A stretch of DNA of 64,000 nucleotides from an uncultured Candidatus Cenarchaeum sp. (GTDB lineage: Archaea; Thermoproteota; Nitrososphaeria; Nitrososphaerales; Nitrosopumilaceae), in assembly GCA_958295735.1 (NCBI GenBank), contig OY282369.1:1286161-1350160 (forward strand), read 5' to 3'. The notes under the pieces were generated by a model. That model did not search any database, was not told where the DNA came from, and saw nothing but the letters and a program-made list of their open reading frames with translations. Shown here piece after piece: positions 4,597-60,934 of this stretch; positions within the stretch are counted from its first letter, which is position 1, and the number at the start of each line of letters is the position of its first letter. The translations under genes were made by a program, and so were the position numbers.

Positions 4597-6483
4597 TATG
4601 AGGTCAGCACCCCCCCCCCCCGCCGGCCGCGGTGCCCCGCGCCCAAGCCGGCCCGGGGCGGGGAGCCTCCCCGCCGCCGGCGTCCCGCGATCAACTAGCT
4701 AGAGAGGCATGTACTAGAGACAGCTCGGGGCGGGGAGCCCCCCCCCCCGCCGCCGGCGTTTGCCGCGGGAAGCGCATCCCCGATCCCGCGTGAGGCCGGC
4801 CCGGGGCGGGGAGCCTTTCCGCCGCCGGCGTCGGTCCCGCGCCGGCCGCGGCGCTGCGCGCTAGACCAGTTTTGCCACTTCTTCGGCCACGCCCTTGCCG
4901 TGCGCCCTCCAGGTCAGGACGCACGTCACGAAGTTGGACATGCGCCTCATGGCCGCGGAGCCGCCCTTGATCTGCCCGCTTATCTTGCGGAACACCACGG
5001 CGTAGCGCAGGGCGCGCTCCGAGGAGTTGTTGGTAGGCTCCGCCTCCGGGTACTCCAGGAACGTGAACAGGATCGGTATGGCCCTCTCGATCCTGGCGAC
5101 GAGTTTTTCCAGCCGCTCGTCGCCCGATCCCCTGTACCGGTCCAGCATGCATCCCAGCGCCACCTCCGCGGCCCGGCGCAGCCTGGCCGACGGCGCCCCG
5201 CCGTCGCGCAGCAGGATGGACTCCACGTACGCGCGCAGCAGGTCCTCGGCCAGGAGGCGCGCGTCCGGATGCGCCCCGTCCGCGTCCGCGACGTGCACGG
5301 CGTTGCGCAGCTCGTGTGACCAGCAGTCCTGGTGCTTTCCTCCCGGATCGAACACCTTGTACGGGCGGTGGCCGTCCGTGGTCACGCATCCCCCGTACCC
5401 GTCCATGTGCGCGTCGATCACCTCGCTGCCCCTGCTCCTGTTGTACACGATGAACACGTTGGGGCCCGACTGGATGACGTGGATCCAGCCCCGGATCCCG
5501 TCCAGCGACATGCCCGACTCGTCGATTCCCGCCGACGGCGAGGCGTAGATCTTGTCCATCACGCCCTTCGCCTCCCGTTCCATGGCGTCCCCGACCCTCG
5601 CGAGCATGTTGATCACCGTGGATTTGGTCACGTGGCAGCCGAACAGCGAGTTCGAGGCCCTCGCGACGCCGTCGTACGGCACCCGATGCGACCGCAGCTC
5701 CGCCACGGCGCCGATCAGGTTCCTGCCGAACGAGCCCTTCTTGGGCAGGCCGCTCTCCGCCTCGAACGTCTTGCCGCACTTTCTGCACTGCGCCGTGTCT
5801 ATGTGGTGGCGCGTCTCGATCGCCACGACGGGCGGTATGTCCGTGATGTCCCGGGTCCTGGTGCAGCCCGGCGCCGCGGGCTGCCCGCAGCATACGGGCG
5901 GGCCGCCCTCGAACGCGTGGTGCTCGGAGCGCGCCGGGTCGTGCCTTCGCGCCGTTCCCTTGTGGCCCTTCCTGCCCCCCGGCTTCTTCCGTTCCGGCCC
6001 GTCGCCGCTCTTGCGGGCGACGTTCTTTTTCTTCTTCAGTTTCTTCCACACCAGCGAGTTGGCCGAGGGCGGCGAGTTGACGTTCTCGTAGTACGACATC
6101 CTGTGGGCCATCGCATCGACGAGCTTCCTGAGGGAGTCGTGCGCGCGGGCAAGCTCGTCGCGCTCGGATCTCACCTCGTCAAACTTGGATCTCAACTCGT
6201 CCATGGCGAGGCGGCCCGCCTCCAGCTCCAGCTCCAGTTCCCTGTACGTCTTGCGCCTGCCCATGCCGTACGGTCTACGGCTATGCATAACAGCGGTCGA
6301 ATTGCGACTTTTCACAAAAAGGTGAAGATCTGCCAACCTCGCGCGGCGGCAAAGCCGGCCCGGGCGCGGGGCGCCGCGGCCGGCGCGGGACCGACGCCGG
6401 CGCGGGGGGAGGGGGCTCCCCGCCCGGGCCGGCCCGGGCGCGGGGCGCCGCGGCCGGCGCGGGGGGGGGGTGCTGACCTCATA
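4597..6483 (-). mobile_element. IS66-type insertion element inserted in the urease promoter region
   Basis: The element is bounded by long imperfect terminal inverted repeats of roughly 95 bp that begin TATGAGGTCAGCACCCCC at both ends. It is flanked by an identical 10-bp direct repeat, CGCGGCGCGG, at 4587-4596 and 6484-6493, read as the target-site duplication. It carries one gene, an IS66-family transposase (4861-6264). The ends contain GC-rich subrepeats: GGGGCGGGGAGCC near 4655, 4737 and 4803, and a 36-bp direct repeat at 6354 and 6428 that includes CGGGCGCGGGGCGCC. No IS66 accessory tnpA/tnpB genes are present. Known IS66 elements usually give 8-bp duplications, so 10 bp is noteworthy. 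Confidence 0.85.
4861..6264 (-). CDS. IS66-family transposase
   Basis: A 467-residue transposase. An N-terminal coiled-coil segment (residues ~10-70) precedes a Lys-rich linker and a Cys-rich zinc-binding region (CCGQPAAPGC ... CRKCGKTFEAE). A DDE catalytic domain follows, with Asp in GIDESGMSLDG, Asp in TTDGHRPYKVF and Glu in NNSSERALRYAVVFRK. The HQDCWSHELRNAVH and FVTCVLTWRAHGKG blocks are typical of IS66. ATG 6264 is chosen; ATG 6288 would add eight residues. The reading frame stays open far upstream, but that extension crosses the element end and is antisense to ureE and ureF. It looks intact, so the element may be recently active. Confidence 0.9.
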   Translation of the reverse strand: MGRRKTYRELELELEAGRLAMDELRSKFDEVRSERDELARAHDSLRKLVDAMAHRMSYYENVNSPPSANSLVWKKLKKKKNVARKSGDGPERKKPGGRKGHKGTARRHDPARSEHHAFEGGPPVCCGQPAAPGCTRTRDITDIPPVVAIETRHHIDTAQCRKCGKTFEAESGLPKKGSFGRNLIGAVAELRSHRVPYDGVARASNSLFGCHVTKSTVINMLARVGDAMEREAKGVMDKIYASPSAGIDESGMSLDGIRGWIHVIQSGPNVFIVYNRSRGSEVIDAHMDGYGGCVTTDGHRPYKVFDPGGKHQDCWSHELRNAVHVADADGAHPDARLLAEDLLRAYVESILLRDGGAPSARLRRAAEVALGCMLDRYRGSGDERLEKLVARIERAIPILFTFLEYPEAEPTNNSSERALRYAVVFRKISGQIKGGSAAMRRMSNFVTCVLTWRAHGKGVAEEVAKLV

Positions 6484-12280: not shown

Positions 12281-12329
12281 TGCCGCGCGCCGGCGCGCGG
12301 TAAGCGGCCGGGCGCGGATGCGGCGGCGG

Positions 12330-12562
12330 CGCCGCGCCGGCGGCGCGCAACCAAGCAACGGGCGCCGCGCCGGCGGCGCGCAACCAAGCAACGGGCGCCG
12401 CGCCGGCGGCGCGCAACCAAGCAACGGGCGCCGCGCCGGCGGCGCGCAACCAAGCAACGGGCGCCGCGCCGGCGGCGCGCAACCAAGCAACGGGCGCCGC
12501 GCCGGCGGCGCGCAACCAAGCAACGGGCGCCGCGCCGGCGGCGCGCAACCAAGCAACGGGCG
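12330..12562. repeat. Seven perfect 33-bp tandem repeats
   Basis: The 33-bp unit (core GGCGCGCAACCAAGCAACGG, rest a GCCGCGCCGGCGGC palindrome) is repeated seven times head to tail with no visible divergence. It lies between the Lrp-like gene and the end of the ParB-like gene. No spacer separates the units, so it is not a CRISPR. Perfect identity implies recent expansion or homogenisation. Being next to parB-like, it could be a ParB-binding array, but nothing proves this. Confidence 0.95.
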
Positions 12563-12602
12563 CCGCCCTTCGCGGGAAGGATGCGCCGCGGGCGGGCCGG
12601 CC

Positions 12603-13821: not shown

Positions 13822-14514
13822 ATGACGACGCACGCCGAGCTGCGGCGGGCCTGCAAGGCAGAAAAAAATCCGCGCAAAAAAGAAAGGTTGCTCGCGGTGC
13901 GCAGCATCGTGATCTGGGGGGAGAGTCGCACGCAGGTTGCAGCGGCGCGGCATCGGGCGTACAACACGATCAGGGCGTGGCACGCGCGCTTCCTGGAGCG
14001 GGGAATAGAAGGACTGGAGGATCTCCCGCGCTCCGGGCGCCCGCCCAAGGCGGCGGGCGGGGCACGATCGGGATCCCGGCGCCGCGGCGATCCCCCGCGC
14101 TCCGGGCGCCCGCCCAAGGCGGCGGGCGGGGCACGATCGGGGTCCCGGCGCCCGCCCAAGGCGGCGGGCGGGGCACGATCGGGGTCCCGGCGCCGCGGCG
14201 ATCCCCCGCGCTCCGGGCGCCCGCCCAAGGCGGCGGGCGGGGCACGATCGGGATCCCGGCGCCGCGGCGATCCCCCGCGCTCCGGGCGCCCGCCCAAGGC
14301 GGCGGGCGGGGCACGATCGGGGTCCCGGCGCCGCGGCGATCCCCCGCGCTCCGGGCGCCCGCCCAAGGCGGCGGGCGGGGCACGATCGGGGTCCCGGCGC
14401 CGCGGCGATCCCCCGCGCTCCGGGCGCCCGCCCAAGGCGGCGGGCCGAAAGATTGCCGACTCTGCGGGCCGCGGCAACGCGGCGCGCGCGGTCCGCAAGT
14501 CCGCAGGACAGTAA
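13822..14514 (+). pseudogene. IS630-type transposase N-terminus with repeat-expanded hinge, truncated
   Basis: From ATG 13822 the first ~75 residues read as an IS630/Tc1-type HTH (MTTHAELRRACKAEKNPRKK ... YNTIRAWHARFLERGIEGLE) and end at the family hinge DLPRSGRPPK. Instead of the DDE catalytic domain, the frame then runs through about six copies of a 23-residue unit built from that hinge (PPRSGRPPKAAGGARSGSRR) and stops after AGRKIADSAGRG.... No DDE region follows before 14850. It is therefore a transposase remnant, or a stand-alone DNA-binding protein with an Arg-rich tail. Confidence 0.7.
14032..14447 (+). repeat. 69-bp in-frame tandem repeats (about six units, one shortened)
   Basis: The unit contains CTCCGGGCGCCCGCCCAAGG and CGATCGGGRTCCCGGCGCCG. 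The copies differ at only one position (GGGATCCC versus GGGTCCC), and the second unit is shortened. The period is 69 bp, so the reading frame is kept. Confidence 0.9.
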
Positions 14515-18960: not shown

Positions 18961-19065
18961 CGCGAGCGCGGATCGGCGGAGTCGCTTCCGCGCCTTGGCG
19001 GACGCCCCCAACACCACCGAGGCCCGCGAGTCGCGAGCGCGGATCGGCGGAGTCGCTTCCGCGCC
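18961..19065. repeat. Spaced direct repeat, 34 bp twice with 37-bp spacer (71-bp step)
   Basis: Two identical 34-bp copies (core GATCGGCGGAGTCGCTTCCG) lie at 18961-18994 and 19032-19065. The 37 bp between them (18995-19031) are unrelated. The repeat contains a GCGGA...TCCGC inverted pair. One of six loci with a ~70-bp step. Confidence 0.9.
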
Positions 19066-23022: not shown

Positions 23023-23685
23023 TTGCCGGATAAAAACGGTGGGCGGGCCGGCGCGTTCGAGGACGACGTGGCCCCGCTGCTGCGCGGCGGCCTCGTCTAC
23101 GTGCTGTGCGAGGAGGCCATCCTAAAGGCGGCGTTCCTGGCCAGGGCGGTGCGGTGCGCCGCCGCCCCCGTCACCTACATAGACACGGACCTGATGTACA
23201 GCGGCCTCCTCTCCTCGGGGATACTTTGCGGGGCCGGCCCCGCGCCGGACGTGCGCAGGCCGGAGGGGGAGGAGGGGATCCGCGCGGCGCTCGCGGCTGC
23301 CCTGCGCGCGGCCTCGGGGGCGGGGAGGGCCTCCGTGGTGGTCGTCGACTCGCTCAACGGCCTGTACGGCATGTGCGGCGACGGCGACGGGGAGAGGCTC
23401 GCCACCGCGCGCCTCATGCTGCTGGCGCTGGCCGCGGGCGGGAGCGGATCCACTGTGATACTGGCGGGCGTCGCCACGCCCAGGGAGGACGGCTGCGGCC
23501 CGGGGCGCTGGGCGCTGGCGCCGGCGGGGCGCCGCATAGCCGCGGCCCGCCCCTCCACGCGCATGCGGCTGAGGCGGGCCGGCGGGGGCGGGGCGGGGGC
23601 GGAGGTAGACCTGCTCGGGGAGGGGGACGCGGCGGTCCGCACCATAGCGATCCCCGGCCTGGCGCCGGCGGCGCCGGCGCCCTGA
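23023..23685 (+). CDS. RecA/KaiC-fold-like protein lacking a clear Walker A
   Basis: TTG 23023 (MPDKNGGRAGAFEDDVAPLL) is chosen because a GTTAAATAC box lies 21-31 bp upstream. The 220 residues resemble the RecA/KaiC fold: GLVYVLCEEAILKAAFLARA, VTYIDTDLMYSGLL, and a Walker B-like strand ASVVVVDSLNGLYGMC. No GxxxxGK[ST] P-loop is visible. It may be a degenerate archaeal RadB/KaiC-type paralogue. The last codons lie inside a 36-bp repeat that recurs just downstream. Confidence 0.6.
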   Translation: MPDKNGGRAGAFEDDVAPLLRGGLVYVLCEEAILKAAFLARAVRCAAAPVTYIDTDLMYSGLLSSGILCGAGPAPDVRRPEGEEGIRAALAAALRAASGAGRASVVVVDSLNGLYGMCGDGDGERLATARLMLLALAAGGSGSTVILAGVATPREDGCGPGRWALAPAGRRIAAARPSTRMRLRRAGGGGAGAEVDLLGEGDAAVRTIAIPGLAPAAPAP

Positions 23686-23757
23686 CGAGAGGCAGTACGT
23701 CATGACCAAGGGCTTCTGGGACCCCGGCCTGGCGCCGGCGGCGCCGGCGCCCTGACG
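23652..23757. repeat. Spaced direct repeat, 36 bp twice with 34-bp spacer (70-bp step)
   Basis: Two identical 36-bp copies (starting CCCCGGCCTGGCGCCGGCGG) lie at 23652-23687 and 23722-23757. The first overlaps the 3' end and stop of the RecA-like gene; the second is non-coding. The 34-bp spacer (23688-23721) is far less GC-rich than its surroundings (AGGCAGTACGTCATGACC), as if it came from elsewhere. Confidence 0.9.
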
Positions 23758-24179: not shown

Positions 24180-24278
24180 CCGGGATCCTGCGCGGCCCCG
24201 GCCCGCGGTTGCGCCGCGGGGGCTGCCCGGTCTCGAACGTCCCCCTCAAGCCGGGATCCTGCGCGGCCCCGGCCCGCG
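24180..24278. repeat. Spaced direct repeat, 28 bp twice with 43-bp spacer (71-bp step)
   Basis: Identical 28-bp copies (starting CCGGGATCCTGCGCGGCCCC) lie at 24180-24207 and 24251-24278, downstream of the ferredoxin and of the convergent DnaJ-like gene. The 43 bp between them are unrelated to the repeat. Confidence 0.9.
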
Positions 24279-46529: not shown

Positions 46530-47285
46530 ATGTTAAAGGGCGGCGTGGAGGCCCGCATACGATCGGAGTTGGAGGGAAAAAAGACGCTGATCTTCGTGCT
46601 GGTCGACTCGGAGGTCTCCGGCGCGGATGCCGCGGCCGACCTTGCGGCGCGGGCGGAGAAGCGGGGCGCATCGGCCGTGCTGGTGGGTGGCTCGACGGTC
46701 ACCGATCAGGCCGAGACGGCCGGCGCTGTCAGAAGCATACGCGGGGCGGTTGGCATACCGACCATACTGTTCCCCGGCAACGTGGCCGGCGTGGTCCCCG
46801 GCGCGGACGCGATACTGTTCACGTCGCTCATGAACTCGGAGCACCCGCACTTTATCACGCAGGCCCAGGCGCTGGGGGCGCCGAGCGTGCTGCGGTACGG
46901 CCTGGAGGCCCTCCCCACCGCCTACCTCGTCATAGGCGAGGGGACCACCGCGTGGTTCGTGGGTTCGGCCAGGGGCATACCCCGCGACAAGCCCAAGATC
47001 GCGGCGGCCTACTCGCTGGCAGCCAGGTTCCTCGGGATGCGGTTCGTGTACCTGGAGGCCGGCTCGGGAGCGGCGGCCAGCGTCAGGCCGGAGATGGTCG
47101 CGGCGGTACGCGCCGCGTTCGACGGGGTGCTGATAGTGGGCGGCGGCATCCGGGACGCGGCGACGGCGGGCAGGCTCTCAAAGGCCGGCGCGGACGTGGT
47201 GGTGGTCGGGACCATGCTGGAGGCAGGGCGCGGGGGCATGGCCAGGCTGTCCGCCATGGCCAAGGCGGTCGGCGGGGCGCGATGA
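46530..47285 (+). CDS. Geranylgeranylglyceryl phosphate synthase
   Basis: A 251-residue TIM-barrel enzyme that forms the first ether bond of archaeal lipids. Diagnostic blocks: SAVLVGGSTVT, TILFPGNVAGVVPGADAILF, SLMNSEHPHF, YLVIGEGTTAWFVGSARGIP, YLEAGSGA, and VGGGIRDAATAG ... VVVGTM. ATG 46530 follows a GTTTAAACC box (46501-46509). The protein ends GGAR, with its TGA overlapping an ATG. Confidence 0.95.
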   Translation: MLKGGVEARIRSELEGKKTLIFVLVDSEVSGADAAADLAARAEKRGASAVLVGGSTVTDQAETAGAVRSIRGAVGIPTILFPGNVAGVVPGADAILFTSLMNSEHPHFITQAQALGAPSVLRYGLEALPTAYLVIGEGTTAWFVGSARGIPRDKPKIAAAYSLAARFLGMRFVYLEAGSGAAASVRPEMVAAVRAAFDGVLIVGGGIRDAATAGRLSKAGADVVVVGTMLEAGRGGMARLSAMAKAVGGAR

Positions 47286-47372
47286 GCGGGGGGAACGCGG
47301 CTTTCCCGCCGCGCCCCGCGCGCGGCCGGCCGGCAGCAACCGGCGGGGCGCGATGAGCGGGGGGAACGCGGC
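47270..47372. repeat. Spaced direct repeat, 32 bp twice with 39-bp spacer (71-bp step)
   Basis: Copies at 47270-47301 and 47341-47372 (core GGCGGGGCGCGATGAGCGGG) flank an unrelated 39-bp spacer. It lies exactly at the stop/start junction of GGGPS and DP2. Confidence 0.92.
47282..47356 (+). CDS. 24-codon microORF created by duplication of the ggs-polC junction
   Basis: ATG 47282 overlaps the GGGPS stop (ATGA). The frame MSGGNAAFPPRPARGRPAAT ... GGAR stops in TGA 47354-47356, which overlaps the ATG of DP2. The 32-bp junction sequence is present twice with a 71-bp step, so this ORF begins like DP2 (MSGGNAA) and ends like GGGPS (GGAR). Probably not a functional protein, but it preserves coupling between its neighbours. 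Confidence 0.5.
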   Translation: MSGGNAAFPPRPARGRPAATGGAR

Positions 47373-50807: not shown

Positions 50808-52172
50808 CTACCTGAGCCTGACGTACTCGTACGCGGGAAGCCTGCCGTCGAAGCAGTAGCGCACCTTCTGGAACCCCTTCCTGAGCGCGCGGACCCCCGA
50901 GCGCACCCGGGCGGGGTCCCTGCCGCCGATGACCGCCTGCCCCATGAGCGAGGCGATCTCGCGCATCTCGCCCTTCTTCATGCCGAGCCTCGTCACCTCT
51001 GCCACCCCGAGCCTGATCCCGCCGGGGTGCATGTAGTGCCGGCCCGCCCTGATGTCCCCCGGGATGAGCTGCCTGTTGACTATTATGTTGGCCTTTTCGA
51101 GATCCGCCTCGACCCGCCCGCCGTCCGAGTGGGCCAGGACGTCGACCGCGACCTGGTGCGATCTCGTGAAGCCGCCGGCCTCGCCCAGCACCCGGAAGCC
51201 GGCCGCGCTGAGCGCCTCGGCGAGCGCCCTCGCGTTGCCGACCACCTGCCTGGCGTAGGCGGCCCCGAACTCGGCGGCCTCGGCGAACGCCACCGCCTTG
51301 GCCGCCATGTGGTGTATGTGGTGGCTGCTCGTGAGGCCCGGAAAGACGGCCCTCTTGATCCCCTCGGCGTGGGCCTTCCCGCCCAGCACCATCCCGCCCT
51401 GCGGGCCGAAGAGCGTCTTGTGCGTGCTGGCCGTGAGCGTGTCTGCCCCCTCCCGGAGCGGGTCCTGGAACTGGCCCCCCGCTATCAGGCCCGCCACGTG
51501 GGCCCCGTCGTAGTTCACGTGCATGCCGCTGTCCTTGAGGAAGCCGGCCAGCTCCTTCACGGGGTGCGGGAACAGGAACAGCGAGCCGCCGAGCATGGCT
51601 ATCTTCGGCGCCCCGCGGCCCCGCTTCAGCCCGCGCACCTTCTTCTTCGTCCCGTCCACGTCGATGTTCATCGCCTCGGGGTCGAACGGGTAGAACTCGA
51701 CGTCCAGCCCGTGGACGAGGCCGGCCGTGCCGGCGTGCTCCCGCCGCCCGTGGGATATGTGGCCCCCCGCGGGGATGGAGGGCGCCAGCATGGCGTCGCC
51801 GGGGCTCGAAAAGGCGGAATACACGGCCAGGTTGGCCACCACCCCCGAGACGGGGCGGACGTCGGCGAACCGCGCCCTGAACAGCCTGCGGGCCAGGGCG
51901 GCGCACTCGACCTCCACCTCGTCTATGTACGCGCAGCCCGCGTACACGCGCTCGCCCGGCCAGCCCTCGGCGTAGCGGTTCCCAAAGTCGGAGATCAGCG
52001 CCTCGCGGACCGCGGGACTCGGGACGTTCTCGCTCGCTATGAGCGGAAGCGACTCGCCGAACCACCCGTGGTGCTTCTTGAGGGCGGCGAAGACGCCGGC
52101 GTAGGATGCGCGGGCCGTCCGGCCCGCGGCTGCAGGGCGCGCCCCGCGCCCCGCGGCCGCCGAAGCTTTCAT
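50808..52172 (-). CDS. glyA: Serine hydroxymethyltransferase
   Basis: A 454-residue PLP enzyme (serine to glycine, one-carbon transfer). LIASENVPSPAVREALISDF, the PLP Lys in TASTHKTLFGPQGGMVLGGK, and HVNYDGAHVAGLIAGGQF are typical of archaeal GlyA. ATG 52172 (MKASAAAGRG) has a TTTAAATGCG box 20-28 bp upstream. The first ~25 residues are a variable Ala/Arg extension. Confidence 0.94.
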   Translation of the reverse strand: MKASAAAGRGARPAAAGRTARASYAGVFAALKKHHGWFGESLPLIASENVPSPAVREALISDFGNRYAEGWPGERVYAGCAYIDEVEVECAALARRLFRARFADVRPVSGVVANLAVYSAFSSPGDAMLAPSIPAGGHISHGRREHAGTAGLVHGLDVEFYPFDPEAMNIDVDGTKKKVRGLKRGRGAPKIAMLGGSLFLFPHPVKELAGFLKDSGMHVNYDGAHVAGLIAGGQFQDPLREGADTLTASTHKTLFGPQGGMVLGGKAHAEGIKRAVFPGLTSSHHIHHMAAKAVAFAEAAEFGAAYARQVVGNARALAEALSAAGFRVLGEAGGFTRSHQVAVDVLAHSDGGRVEADLEKANIIVNRQLIPGDIRAGRHYMHPGGIRLGVAEVTRLGMKKGEMREIASLMGQAVIGGRDPARVRSGVRALRKGFQKVRYCFDGRLPAYEYVRLR

Positions 52173-52230
52173 GCCGCCGCCGTGCCCGCCCGCATTTAAA
52201 ACGGTATTGATGGCGCTCCGGCCAGGCGCC

Positions 52231-52400
52231 GCTGCGCGGAAACGGCGCCCCACGGGCGCGCCCCGCGGCCGCCGGCTGGGGCACTTTGCCCCGATTGCGG
52301 CTGCGCGGAAACGGCGCCCCACGGGCGCGCCTCGTCCAGCATGACCTTCCGGCGGACGGGAGCAGGCGGCTGCGCGGAAACGGCGCCCCACGGGCGCGCC
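52231..52400. repeat. CRISPR-like mini-array: three perfect 32-bp repeats, two 37-bp spacers
   Basis: Repeats (core GCGCGGAAACGGCGCCCCAC) lie at 52231-52262, 52300-52331 and 52369-52400. The spacers 52263-52299 and 52332-52368 are each exactly 37 bp and unrelated to one another. Repeat length, spacer length and constant 69-bp step are those of a CRISPR array, but there is no AT-rich leader, no cas gene in the window, and the array is tiny. A diverged copy of the repeat (29/32) lies at 59440-59471. Between glyA and the thermosome gene. Confidence 0.9.
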
Positions 52401-52436
52401 CCCGGAATCGGGGGCATGAGACGGACTACCGGATTA

Positions 52437-52473: not shown

Positions 52474-54156
52474 ATGAGCAACGTCCAGGCCTCGTCAAAG
52501 GGCACCATGCCGGTGGTGTTGCTAAAGGAGGGCTCCTCGGAGACCAAGGGGCGCGACGCCCAGAAAAACAACATATCCGCATCCAAGATAATCGCCGAAA
52601 TCGTGCACTCCAGCTTGGGCCCCCGCGGCATGGACAAGATGCTGGTTGACTCTTTGGGTGACGTTACCATAACCAACGACGGCGCCACCATACTCAAGGA
52701 GATCGACGTCCAGCATCCGGCCGCCAAGATGCTCGTGGAGATATCAAAGTCAACCGACAACGAGGTGGGCGACGGCACCACCTCCGCCGTCGTCTTGGCC
52801 GGCTCCCTCTTGGAGAACGCCGAGTCGCTCCTCGCCCAGGACGTGCACCCCACGGTGATCGTCGACGGGTACAGGAAGGCGGCCAAAAAGGCCGAGGAGG
52901 CCCTCCGGGAGATAGCCGATGCGGTCTCTCCCGACGACCGTGGCATCCTCGCGAAGGTCGCCAAGACGTCCATGCAGACAAAACTGGTCAGGAAGGACTC
53001 CGACCTGCTTACCGACCTCGTGGTGCGGGCAGTCATGGCGGTGGCCGACAAGGACGGCGAGGGCCGGGCCGTCGACGTGGACGACGTGAAGGTGGAGAAA
53101 AAGGCGGGCGGCTCCGTCGGGGACTCGCGCCTCGTCGAGGGCATAGTGCTGGACAAGGAGATAGTCCACGGCGGGATGCCCAAAAGGATCGCCGATGCCA
53201 AGATCGCACTGCTCAACGCAGCGCTAGAGATCAGCAAGACCGAGACGGATGCGAAGATAAACATCTCCAACCCCCAGCAGCTAAAGTCGTTCTTGGACGA
53301 GGAGAACCGCATGCTGAAGACCATGGTGGACAAGGTGATAGCGTCCGGCGCCAACGTGGTCCTGTGCCAGAAGGGCATAGACGACATGGCCCAGCACTAC
53401 CTGGCAAAGGCCAACATACAGGCAGTCAGGCGCATAAAAGAAAGCGACCTGTCAAAGCTGGCAAAGGCCACGGGGGCCCGAATCGTGACCAACTTGGACG
53501 ACCTGTTCGAGAAGGACTTGGGCTCGGCGGCGAGCGTGGAGGAGCGCAAGATAGAGGAGGACCGCTGGGTGTTCGTGGAGGGTTGCCGCCATCCAAAGTC
53601 CGTGACCATCCTGTTGCGCGGCGGCTCGCAGCGCGTGGTGGACGAGGCCGAGAGGTCGGTGCACGATGCCGTAATGGTGGTAAAGGACGTGCTGGAGCTT
53701 CCCTCCGTGGTGGCCGGCGGCGGCGCCCCCGAGACCTACGCGGCATCGCAGGTGCGCGGCTGGTCAAAGTCGCTGGCGGGCAGGGAGCAGCTCGCGGCAG
53801 AAAAGTACGCCGACTCGCTGGAGTCCATACCGCTGGCGCTCTCCGAGAACGCGGGAATGGATCCGATTGACACCCTCACGTCCCTCAGGTCCAGGCAGCT
53901 GAAGGGCGAAAAGTGGACGGGCATCGACGTGATGAAGGCCCGCATATCCAACATGAAGGCCGGCGACATCATTGAGCCGCTGGCGGTCAAGTCGCAGGTA
54001 GTCTCCTCCGCCACCGAGGCCGCGTGCATGATACTGCGCATCGACGACGTGGTGGCCACCGCGAAATCCGCCGGCCCGCCCCCCGGGGGCGAGGGCGGAA
54101 TGGGCGGCGGCGGCATGGGCGGAATGGGCGGCGGCATGCCTGACATGGGCATGTGA
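52474..54156 (+). CDS. ths: Thermosome (group II chaperonin) subunit
   Basis: A 560-residue chaperonin. ATP-site motifs: SSLGPRGMDKMLVDSLGDVT, TNDGATILKEIDVQHPAAKM, DNEVGDGTTSAVVLAGSLL, and VVAGGGAPE. The C-terminal Gly/Met-rich tail (GGGMGGMGGGMPDMGM) projects into the cavity. It folds cytosolic proteins in an eight- or nine-membered double ring. Codon use is less extreme in GC3 than in neighbours, consistent with high expression. Confidence 0.97.
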   Translation: MSNVQASSKGTMPVVLLKEGSSETKGRDAQKNNISASKIIAEIVHSSLGPRGMDKMLVDSLGDVTITNDGATILKEIDVQHPAAKMLVEISKSTDNEVGDGTTSAVVLAGSLLENAESLLAQDVHPTVIVDGYRKAAKKAEEALREIADAVSPDDRGILAKVAKTSMQTKLVRKDSDLLTDLVVRAVMAVADKDGEGRAVDVDDVKVEKKAGGSVGDSRLVEGIVLDKEIVHGGMPKRIADAKIALLNAALEISKTETDAKINISNPQQLKSFLDEENRMLKTMVDKVIASGANVVLCQKGIDDMAQHYLAKANIQAVRRIKESDLSKLAKATGARIVTNLDDLFEKDLGSAASVEERKIEEDRWVFVEGCRHPKSVTILLRGGSQRVVDEAERSVHDAVMVVKDVLELPSVVAGGGAPETYAASQVRGWSKSLAGREQLAAEKYADSLESIPLALSENAGMDPIDTLTSLRSRQLKGEKWTGIDVMKARISNMKAGDIIEPLAVKSQVVSSATEAACMILRIDDVVATAKSAGPPPGGEGGMGGGGMGGMGGGMPDMGM

Positions 54157-59075: not shown

Positions 59076-59378
59076 ATGGCCGCCGAGGACGAGCCCAAGT
59101 ACGTCTTTGCGACTCTGAAGATGCCCGACGGCAAGGAGTACGAGGTGCCCCTTCCCGCCAAGGTCTTCAGCACCGGCCGCAGGGGGTTCTACGGCCAGAT
59201 TCCCCCCATGGCGTACGGCGGCGACGTGTACGGCGGGCAGATCCAGATCTGGAAAAAAAGCGACAAAAAGGACGAGGAGACCGCTGCCCCCGAGCCCCGG
59301 GCCGGCGACGGCTCCCCGGAAACGGGCGGCAAAAAGGACGACGGGGCCGCCGACCCCGATCCCGCGCCGCCGGCCTAG
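59076..59378 (+). CDS. Hypothetical small protein (100 aa) with acidic tail
   Basis: Residues 1-60 look folded (YVFATLKMPDGKEYEVPLPA, KVFSTGRRGFYGQIPPMAYG, YGGQIQIWKKSDKKDEE). Residues 61-100 are an acidic, Pro/Gly-rich tail, probably disordered. Not recognised; seems to be in a two-gene unit with the 24-residue ORF. Confidence 0.72.
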   Translation: MAAEDEPKYVFATLKMPDGKEYEVPLPAKVFSTGRRGFYGQIPPMAYGGDVYGGQIQIWKKSDKKDEETAAPEPRAGDGSPETGGKKDDGAADPDPAPPA

Positions 59379-59401
59379 CCGCCCGCCGGCATTCGATGCC
59401 G

Positions 59402-59505
59402 CCTCCGGGTCCCGCAGGACGAAGCCGGCCTAGCTTGCGGTTGCGCGGAAACGGCGCCCCCCGGGCGCGCTTCCTCCAGGTCCCGCGGGACGAAGCCGGC
59501 CTAGC
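59402..59505. repeat. Spaced direct repeat, 33 bp twice (2 mismatches), 38-bp spacer resembling the 52-kb repeat
   Basis: Copies at 59402-59434 and 59473-59505 (core GACGAAGCCGGCCTAGC) have a 71-bp step. The spacer 59435-59472 holds TTGCGCGGAAACGGCGCCCC and matches the 32-bp repeat of the 52231 array at 29 of 32 positions. The second copy overlaps the stop of the kinase-glycosylase gene. Confidence 0.9.
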
Positions 59506-60934
59506 CGCCCGCCAGGCCGCCCGCCAGCATCCCGGGCTCCGCCGCCTGCCACCTCCACAGGTACCACGTGGCCGCGCTCCTGTAGGGCCGCCACGCCTCG
59601 GCCTCCCTCTCCGCCTCCGCCTCCGAGGGCAGCCTGCCCGCCGAGCGCAGCAGCATGATCCCCCTCCTGAGCCCCAGATCGCCGGCGGGCAGCACGTCGA
59701 GCCGCCCCAGCGCGAACATGAGGAACATCTGGGCCGTCCACCTGCCCACCCCCCTGACCGCGGAGAGCTCGCCGACCACGTCCTCGTCCGGCATGCGGGG
59801 CAGGGCGTCCAGCCTGAGGGCCCCCGACTCGATCCTCGCGGAGAGGCCGGCGATCGCCGCCGCCTTCATCCCGGACAGCCCCGCCCCGCGCAGCGCGGCC
59901 TCGGGGGTGGCGGCGACGGCGCCGGGCCGCGGGAACCGCCCCCCGTACAGCGCCCTGAACCTCGCCGCCGCCGCGCCGGCCGCCGCGCCCGACAGCTGCT
60001 GGCCTATGACGGCCAGGACCAGCGACTCGTACCTGTTCCTGGCGCGCCGCATGCGGTACTCGCCCACGCGCCCGACCACGGCGGCCAGCCGCCCGTCCCT
60101 GCCCGAGAGGTGCCTCGCCACGGCGCCCCGCTCCGCGGGGGCCGGCGGCCCGCGCGGGGAAAGCCCCAGCGCGCCCAGGACGCCCTCGAAACTCTCCCGC
60201 GTCCCCTCCGACTTGTAGGCCCTGAGCGCCCGCACCGCCGCGCCCTTTTCGGGCCTCGCGCCCAGGCGCCCCATCGCCTCGGCCATTCCCGATCCTATGA
60301 ACATCCCCTGCGCCGCCGAGGTCACGTTGGAGGCGCGCCTTCCCGCGCTGGCGCCCTCGAAATCCACCACGGCCGTCCTCCCCCCGCCGCCCACCACAGC
60401 GTGCCGGTGTATCCTGCTCAGCTCGCCGTGGTCGAGGCCCGCCGCGTCCAGGCGGTAGCAGTCCTCCAGCACCGCCCTGGCCGCCCTCCTCGCCTCTGCG
60501 GCGCCCGCGGGCCCGCCGCCGGCCATCCAGCTGCCTATGGTGCGCCCCTCCGCCAGCTCCATCACCAGGAAGTTCCTGCTCGCCCCGGCCAGCGCGGGCC
60601 CGACCCCCGCCTTGTTGGCGGCGCCCAGCAGCCTCGCCTCCCCCAGCATGCTGCGGCGCGGCGAGTCCAGCCGCCGGATCTTCAGGGCGGCCGCCCGCGC
60701 CCTCCCGCCAGCCCGGGCCAGCACCACCACCCCCGAGTGCCCCTTTCCCAGCACGTCCAGGCCGCGCACGCGGGCGGGGCCCTCGAACCGCACGCCGGAG
60801 ACCCCCAGCCTTCCCAACTCCGCGAGGCGCGACGCCACCGTCCGCGCCCCCGCGGGCCCTGGGTACGCCAGGATTCCCGAGTACGGCGGGCCCGCCAGCG
60901 CCTCAACTGGCAGGAACTTGGAGGAGCGCCGCAT
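59501..60934 (-). CDS. Fusion of COG2112-type Ser/Thr protein kinase and AlkA-type DNA glycosylase
   Basis: A single 477-codon frame. Residues ~1-260 match the archaeal predicted Ser/Thr kinase family COG2112: Gly loop VLGKGHSGVVVLA (61-73), Lys in AALKIRRLD (~85), DHGELSRIHRHAVV (168-181), VVDFEGASAGRRASNVTSAA (189-208). Residues ~275-465 match a helix-hairpin-helix-GPD DNA glycosylase of AlkA type: SLVLAVIGQQLSGAAAGAAA, HhH LSAVRGVGRWTAQMFLMFAL, and catalytic Asp ~419 in LPAGDLGLRRGIML. The linker (262-275) is Pro-rich. The two parts are usually separate proteins. The start (ATG 60934) overlaps the end of cca by 32 bp. Confidence 0.88.
   Translation of the reverse strand: MRRSSKFLPVEALAGPPYSGILAYPGPAGARTVASRLAELGRLGVSGVRFEGPARVRGLDVLGKGHSGVVVLARAGGRARAAALKIRRLDSPRRSMLGEARLLGAANKAGVGPALAGASRNFLVMELAEGRTIGSWMAGGGPAGAAEARRAARAVLEDCYRLDAAGLDHGELSRIHRHAVVGGGGRTAVVDFEGASAGRRASNVTSAAQGMFIGSGMAEAMGRLGARPEKGAAVRALRAYKSEGTRESFEGVLGALGLSPRGPPAPAERGAVARHLSGRDGRLAAVVGRVGEYRMRRARNRYESLVLAVIGQQLSGAAAGAAAARFRALYGGRFPRPGAVAATPEAALRGAGLSGMKAAAIAGLSARIESGALRLDALPRMPDEDVVGELSAVRGVGRWTAQMFLMFALGRLDVLPAGDLGLRRGIMLLRSAGRLPSEAEAEREAEAWRPYRSAATWYLWRWQAAEPGMLAGGLAGG

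Follow-up and report, generated by a model that had tools for sequence, protein, structure and literature searches.

How did a sequence that acts as the repeat of one array come to lie, as a spacer, between duplicated flanks at a second locus? The question arises in the window, the whole stretch of 64,000 nucleotides analyzed here (positions 1,286,161-1,350,160 of a single-contig genome of 3.17 Mb, G000:C1, with a GC content of ~70%; coordinates prefixed G000 are those of the genome). The initial annotation had described, at 59.4 kb, a segment lying between 33-bp duplicated flanks and matching the repeat of an array at 52 kb at 29 of 32 positions, and had seen in it a short piece of DNA copied and inserted with target duplication. 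The duplicated flanks are real (33 bp at 59402-59434 and again at 59473-59505, with an offset of 71, an identity of 94% and 38 nt of intervening sequence) and the match was reported about right: the 52-kb repeat has a 31-bp core with exact copies at 52231, 52300 and 52369, and a copy with two mismatches at 59440. None of the sequence shuffles gave a match of the 59.4-kb segment to the 52-kb repeat.

The register of repeat and insert at 59.4 kb is uncertain by a few bases. Taken as 36 bp, the left target copy lies at 59399-59434 (plus strand, 32/36 identical to 59470-59505), the inserted 35-nt spacer at 59435-59469 (plus strand; 38 nt if only the 33-bp core counts as repeat) and the right target copy at 59470-59505 (plus strand), which continues into the native flank CGCCCGCC. 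When the insert is matched as a whole, 59435-59472 agrees with 52295-52332 at 35/38 positions, the similarity trailing a few bases into the right repeat, and no TTN is found next to this donor. As the flanks are 94% and not 100% identical, the event was not recent. Divergence is comparable between the two target copies (4/36) and between insert and donor (3/38), which would fit both dating from one event. An older, nested insertion at this site is possible. The right repeat runs into the native flank GCCGGCCTAGCCGCCCGCC, which recurs where the upstream gene has its stop codon (59369-59387), and GCCGGCCTAGC(CGCCCGCC) occurs three times in the window, at 59369-59387 (the copy that contains this stop codon), 59424-59434 and 59495-59513; a nested event with a subsequent deletion would be consistent with the offset of 55 between the first two GCCGGCCTAGC copies. 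In addition, 24 nt of the left repeat (59400-59423) recur without mismatch at G000:1667784, in what reads as the coding sequence of RNA polymerase subunit A', and this stretch may be an older inserted fragment beneath the later event. A tRNA was the sole Rfam match in the window.

The putative donor of the 59.4-kb insert (52295-52332, plus strand) consists of repeat copy 2 of the 52-kb array together with 2 nt of spacer 1. This array lies between two divergent genes, SHMT-like (50808-52172, minus strand) and thermosome (52474-54156, plus strand), and comprises, on the plus strand, repeat 1 (52228-52263), spacer 1 (52264-52296, 33 nt), repeat 2 (52297-52332), spacer 2 (52333-52365, 33 nt, unrelated to spacer 1) and repeat 3 (52366-52401). 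The left edge of the 59.4-kb insert, TTGCGG, is found among the 52-kb copies only at the second, because there the end of spacer 1 precedes the repeat; the 52-kb site therefore already had spacer 1 when the fragment was copied, and the 59-kb spacer would have been copied from the second 52-kb repeat. Very probably, the 52-kb array is a neo-CRISPR array built by two successive insertions at one target. Its spacers, at 33 nt, have a length found once among the 527 spacers of the canonical array of this genome, and neither the 52-kb nor the 59-kb repeat is related to the canonical CRISPR repeat GCTTCAATGGGGCCGCAACATGAGAGTTGCGGAAAG. The thermosome gene is 77% identical in the congeneric genome G001, where the match ends short of the intergenic DNA.

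The same geometry recurs elsewhere. Self-comparison of the window found seven unrelated places with repeat pairs at offsets 69-74, the repeats being 28-36 bp long, among them 6354-6463 (repeat 36, spacer 38, offset 74), 18961-19065 (repeat 34, spacer 37, offset 71), 23652-23757 (repeat 36, spacer 34, offset 70, the spacer being a 33/34 copy of G000:1463610), 24180-24278 (a decayed repeat of 28, offset 71) and 47270-47372 (repeat 32, spacer 39, offset 71). A segmental duplication has placed a second copy of the first of these, flanks included, at G000:1253803 on the opposite strand. A scan for isolated direct-repeat pairs, which covered 2.09 Mb or 66% of the genome, counted 13, 29, 59, 36 and 15 pairs at offsets 69, 70, 71, 72 and 73, respectively, and ~2 at other offsets; after score filtering, 139 isolated pairs at offsets 69-73 stood against 10.2 expected in the same portion (Poisson p ~1e-103). 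With ~140 loci over a background of ~10 in 66% of the genome, ~200 are therefore expected in all. The repeat length at these offsets peaks at 36 bp (31 pairs), 37 bp (23) and 38 bp (13), and control offsets have no such peak. According to a simple codon-usage gene model, 94/122 strong loci are intergenic, compared with 20% of random positions. At eight loci, the 52-kb array among them, at least three copies enclose different spacers, as would be seen if a neo-CRISPR array had taken up spacers on two occasions.

Other repetitive features were recorded along the way. The genome scan had extra offset peaks at 83, 102, 126, 204 and 297/300. Tandem arrays of period 69-72 at G000:C1:606760, 1514687, 1936166 and 332213, and ~20 more, are probably repeat-spacer units later amplified by recombination between the duplicated targets. 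In the window, a compound tandem repeat at 14020-14445 (periods 69, 111 and 42) is possibly an amplified locus of this repeat-spacer-repeat kind, and a GC-rich palindromic unit of 33 bp is present in 7.2 perfect copies at 12328-12566.

As read from the sequence, what stays constant across sites is the geometry (an insert of ~35 and a duplication of ~36), and it is equal to that of the genome's own type I-G array. Very large for an archaeon, this canonical array (2939609-2981980) extends over 42 kb; it counts 531 repeats, each of 36 bp, and 527 spacers, of which 513 are unique, and three inserts of ~1.3-1.6 kb break it up. Its spacers measure 34-37 nt in 497/527 cases (34 nt, 82; 35 nt, 199; 36 nt, 148; 37 nt, 68) and its pitch is 70-73; the mean pitch, 71.6, is compatible with the 71.2 of the dispersed loci (KS p 0.15). 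Cas3g, Csx17, Csb1 and Csb2 are encoded to its left, and Cas2 and a Cas4g/Cas1g fusion to its right, all scoring above curated cut-offs, so that the type I-G locus is complete; its Cas1 is the sole Cas1 match of the genome. A 36-nt repeat and a TTN PAM have been published for type I-G (PMC9638904), and the GAA PAM strand is used in type I-G Cas4/1 processing (PMC10504553). In the 66% of the genome covered, all exact copies of the CRISPR repeat (528/528) lie within this one array, and in the same portion a self-match of at least 28 nt was found for 0/527 canonical spacers. The simplest reading would be that self spacers are lost from the functional array by self-targeting and are harmless within non-cognate repeats.

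At several dispersed loci the inserts, which are ~30-39 nt long, are copies of unlinked genomic DNA, with the similarity ending at the insert edges and the flanks unrelated. A self-match of the inserts is by itself not diagnostic, as flanking controls match as often; because the genome is very repetitive, plain matching is uninformative, and only the coincidence of the match ends with the insert edges discriminates. By this strict test, a donor was found for 19/125 loci, compared with 97/4000 random intergenic segments (p 9e-10) and 16/4000 coding segments (p 9e-21). The donor segment was 34-37 nt long in 25/33 cases. Outside one end of the donor, TT stood at positions -3,-2 in 8/33 donors, against 5.5% expected (p 3e-4), and in 13/33 when one base of slack was allowed (p 2e-4), as a TTN PAM would predict, with the edges uncertain by 1-3 nt; since TTN is present in a minority of donors, this PAM enrichment is supportive only. 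In a survey of copied fragments in all intergenic DNA, coding donors numbered 8 at 35 nt, 6 at 36, 4 at 37 and 0 at 38, and this drop beyond 37 nt, in small numbers, is likewise supportive. At 110117, a 17-nt piece of the CRISPR repeat forms part of the insert. DNA repair in general can yield small templated insertions, and short-patch template switching or microhomology-mediated repair might copy small pieces whose flanks are duplicated by chance, in a genome that is highly redundant and rich in duplicated, GC-repetitive DNA (650/1500 random intergenic 36-mers match at least 27 nt elsewhere). Such repair, however, predicts no fixed 36-bp duplication and no 34-37-nt insert, and neither the geometry of the canonical array nor TTN at donor ends, and we consider it very unlikely to account for these loci.

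Several loci have an empty paralogous site, with a single repeat and no insert. The search was a strict one, its permissive version giving thousands of spurious GC-rich matches, and it paired 27627 with 25838, 26357 and 26964 (98-99% identity), 880330 with 1112247 (95%) and 2911733 with 2573979 (91%); locus 1014416 has one as well (91-95%), and so do others. The empty paralogous sites demonstrate insertion with target duplication and rule out decayed arrays. Our main reading, to which we assign a probability of roughly nine in ten, is that the type I-G Cas4/1-Cas2 integrated spacers ectopically at the dispersed loci. The Cas4-Cas1 fusion together with Cas2 would take up a chromosomal fragment of ~35 bp, at 59.4 kb the second 52-kb repeat; the fragment would enter ordinary intergenic sequence by two staggered attacks ~36 bp apart, and gap filling would leave the 36-bp target duplicated on either side. 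The evidence is comparative throughout: the geometry, its identity with that of the canonical array, the sharp-edged copied inserts, the empty sites and the complete type I-G locus are visible in the DNA itself, whereas the role of Cas4/1-Cas2 as the enzyme, and any account of target choice, are inferred. Short fragments might also be moved by an overlooked transposase or integrase, distinct from Cas1, whose target duplication would have the unusual length of 36 bp, given that target duplication is demonstrated and that Cas4/1-Cas2 is a predicted enzyme for the reaction. Against this, the canonical array has exactly such a geometry, the sole Cas1 match of the genome belongs there, and no transposase known to us combines 36-bp duplications with the insertion of unrelated 35-nt fragments; the probability of this alternative seems to us very small.

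The repeats of the dispersed loci differ from site to site, and are unlike each other and unlike the CRISPR repeat. When the CRISPR-repeat motif was sought in the targets, the mean best identity was 13.3/36 compared with ~12.6 in controls, with no clear resemblance, and the idea that the repeats are degenerate copies of the CRISPR repeat was rejected on these figures. It is scarcely credible that a single old family of CRISPR arrays, its repeats since diverged, left the loci behind as decayed or homing remnants: the pitch of the loci equals that of the array and eight of them have several spacers, but the repeats are unrelated between loci and to the CRISPR repeat, and paralogs without the insert keep a single native copy of the repeat. 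Hairpin-driven target choice was also rejected, the repeats folding no better than GC-matched 36-mers; in Sulfolobus, Cas1 binds stem-loops (PMC9456107). The duplicated targets at G000:C1:867092 and 317690 resemble tRNA 3' ends (GGATTTGAACCC and GGTTCAAAGCCCCCC, respectively), which suggests integration at tRNA genes. That the targets are intergenic and GC-rich could be an outcome of selection and not of how they are chosen. In Sulfolobus, specific integration is described as dependent on host factors (PMC5815122, PMC9456107), and the loss of such a factor would be a plausible cause here.

The initial view of a fragment copied and inserted with target duplication is borne out by the sharp-edged donors and the paralogous empty sites, whereas its other half, a mobile sequence in its own right that spreads, is not, each site having a different insert and a different duplicated target. 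A search of the genome for copies of the 32-bp sequence found four places only (four exact 14-mers), the next matches being weak. A dispersed mobile 32-bp element was rejected, as the 59.4-kb copy and the three 52-kb copies are the only ones in the genome. Copies lacking flanking duplications had been named as evidence against mobility, which does not apply to the 52-kb copies because these are themselves the duplicated target of earlier events. A palindromic element of REP or MITE type, transferred from the 52-kb to the 59-kb site, which the GC-rich sequence with its inverted repeat and the one copy flanked by a duplication might recall, can be dismissed, given that three of the four places are the duplicated 52-kb target, that the other loci of the same geometry hold unrelated inserts and that, over the whole genome, the 32-bp sequence does not form the single family of many dispersed copies typical of REP/BIME or MITE sequences.

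Among relatives, 200 kb of the same-genus genome G001 (2,045,086 bp), which has no Cas1 match, contained 0 isolated pairs at offsets 66-78; this absence in a Cas1-less congener is correlative, and other differences between the species fit it too (GC 57% vs 70%). In two Cas1-bearing relatives, 100 kb of each held no such pairs outside canonical arrays. A search for the Cas4-Cas1 protein in GTDB contigs found nothing.

Ectopic integration on this scale raises a wider possibility, which we put forward tentatively and hold to be somewhat less probable than its opposite: CRISPR adaptation in this lineage might amount to a standing, genome-wide transposition of short fragments, carrying self DNA into intergenic regions, including promoters, and repeatedly at some sites. 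Such a transposition-like process would be tolerated because non-cognate repeats are not made into guides. If this is true, adaptation would genuinely feed intergenic sequence and tandem repeats into an expanded genome, and transcription and use of some neo-arrays would be conceivable. What is known of off-target Cas1-Cas2 integration comes mostly from overexpression; with ~200 natural fossil events, one could measure how often it happens, how targets are chosen, how far it depends on a PAM and what becomes of the inserts. The loci would also trace a route to the birth of new CRISPR arrays, eight of them already having two or more different spacers, and constitute a natural self-targeting experiment, with self inserts common outside the array and 0/527 inside it (at 28 nt or more). 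For such genomes, CRISPR-finding software would report many false "orphan arrays".

Several known systems invite comparison. Casposons are kilobase elements with target duplications of ~14-15 bp. The proposed events would share with casposons and casposases the action of a Cas1-family integrase outside CRISPR arrays; the loci described here hold inserts of ~30-39 nt, and not a kilobase element with its own Cas1 and terminal inverted repeats. For E. coli, Nivala, Shipman and Church (2018) reportedly listed a few putative natural off-target cases too. Ectopic targets in E. coli resemble the native repeat or leader, which is a feature of the known cases and not of the reaction. Off-target integration and neo-CRISPR loci of the E. 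coli type I-E system (doi 10.1038/s41564-017-0097-z) were obtained through Cas1-Cas2 overexpression (PMC11788318) and were favoured near IHF-like motifs (PMC9456107). There, as here, a spacer-sized fragment lies outside the array and a repeat-length target is duplicated; unlike that system, the present one is natural, belongs to an archaeon whose Cas4/1 is of type I-G, numbers ~200 loci in the genome, shows no clear target motif and draws many inserts from its own chromosome. The minimal Cas1 integrase of type V-C is described as frequently integrating off target (PMC13034035), and would be alike in being an adaptation integrase with low intrinsic target specificity; it works without Cas2 and with short repeats and spacers, whereas Cas4/1 plus Cas2 and a 36/35 geometry are found here. 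With canonical type I-G adaptation (36-nt repeats, TTN PAM, Cas4/1 fusion; PMC10504553, PMC9638904) the dispersed loci share the 36-nt repeat length and a genome that encodes the Cas4/1 fusion, as well as, in a minority of donors, an adjoining TTN, but here fragments enter DNA beyond the array whose sequence has no relation to the repeat, and self-derived inserts are common, in contrast to the canonical array with its 0/527. Altogether, the type of reaction is already known, and what appears to be new is its natural scale, the self-origin of the inserts and targets that bear no resemblance to the repeat.
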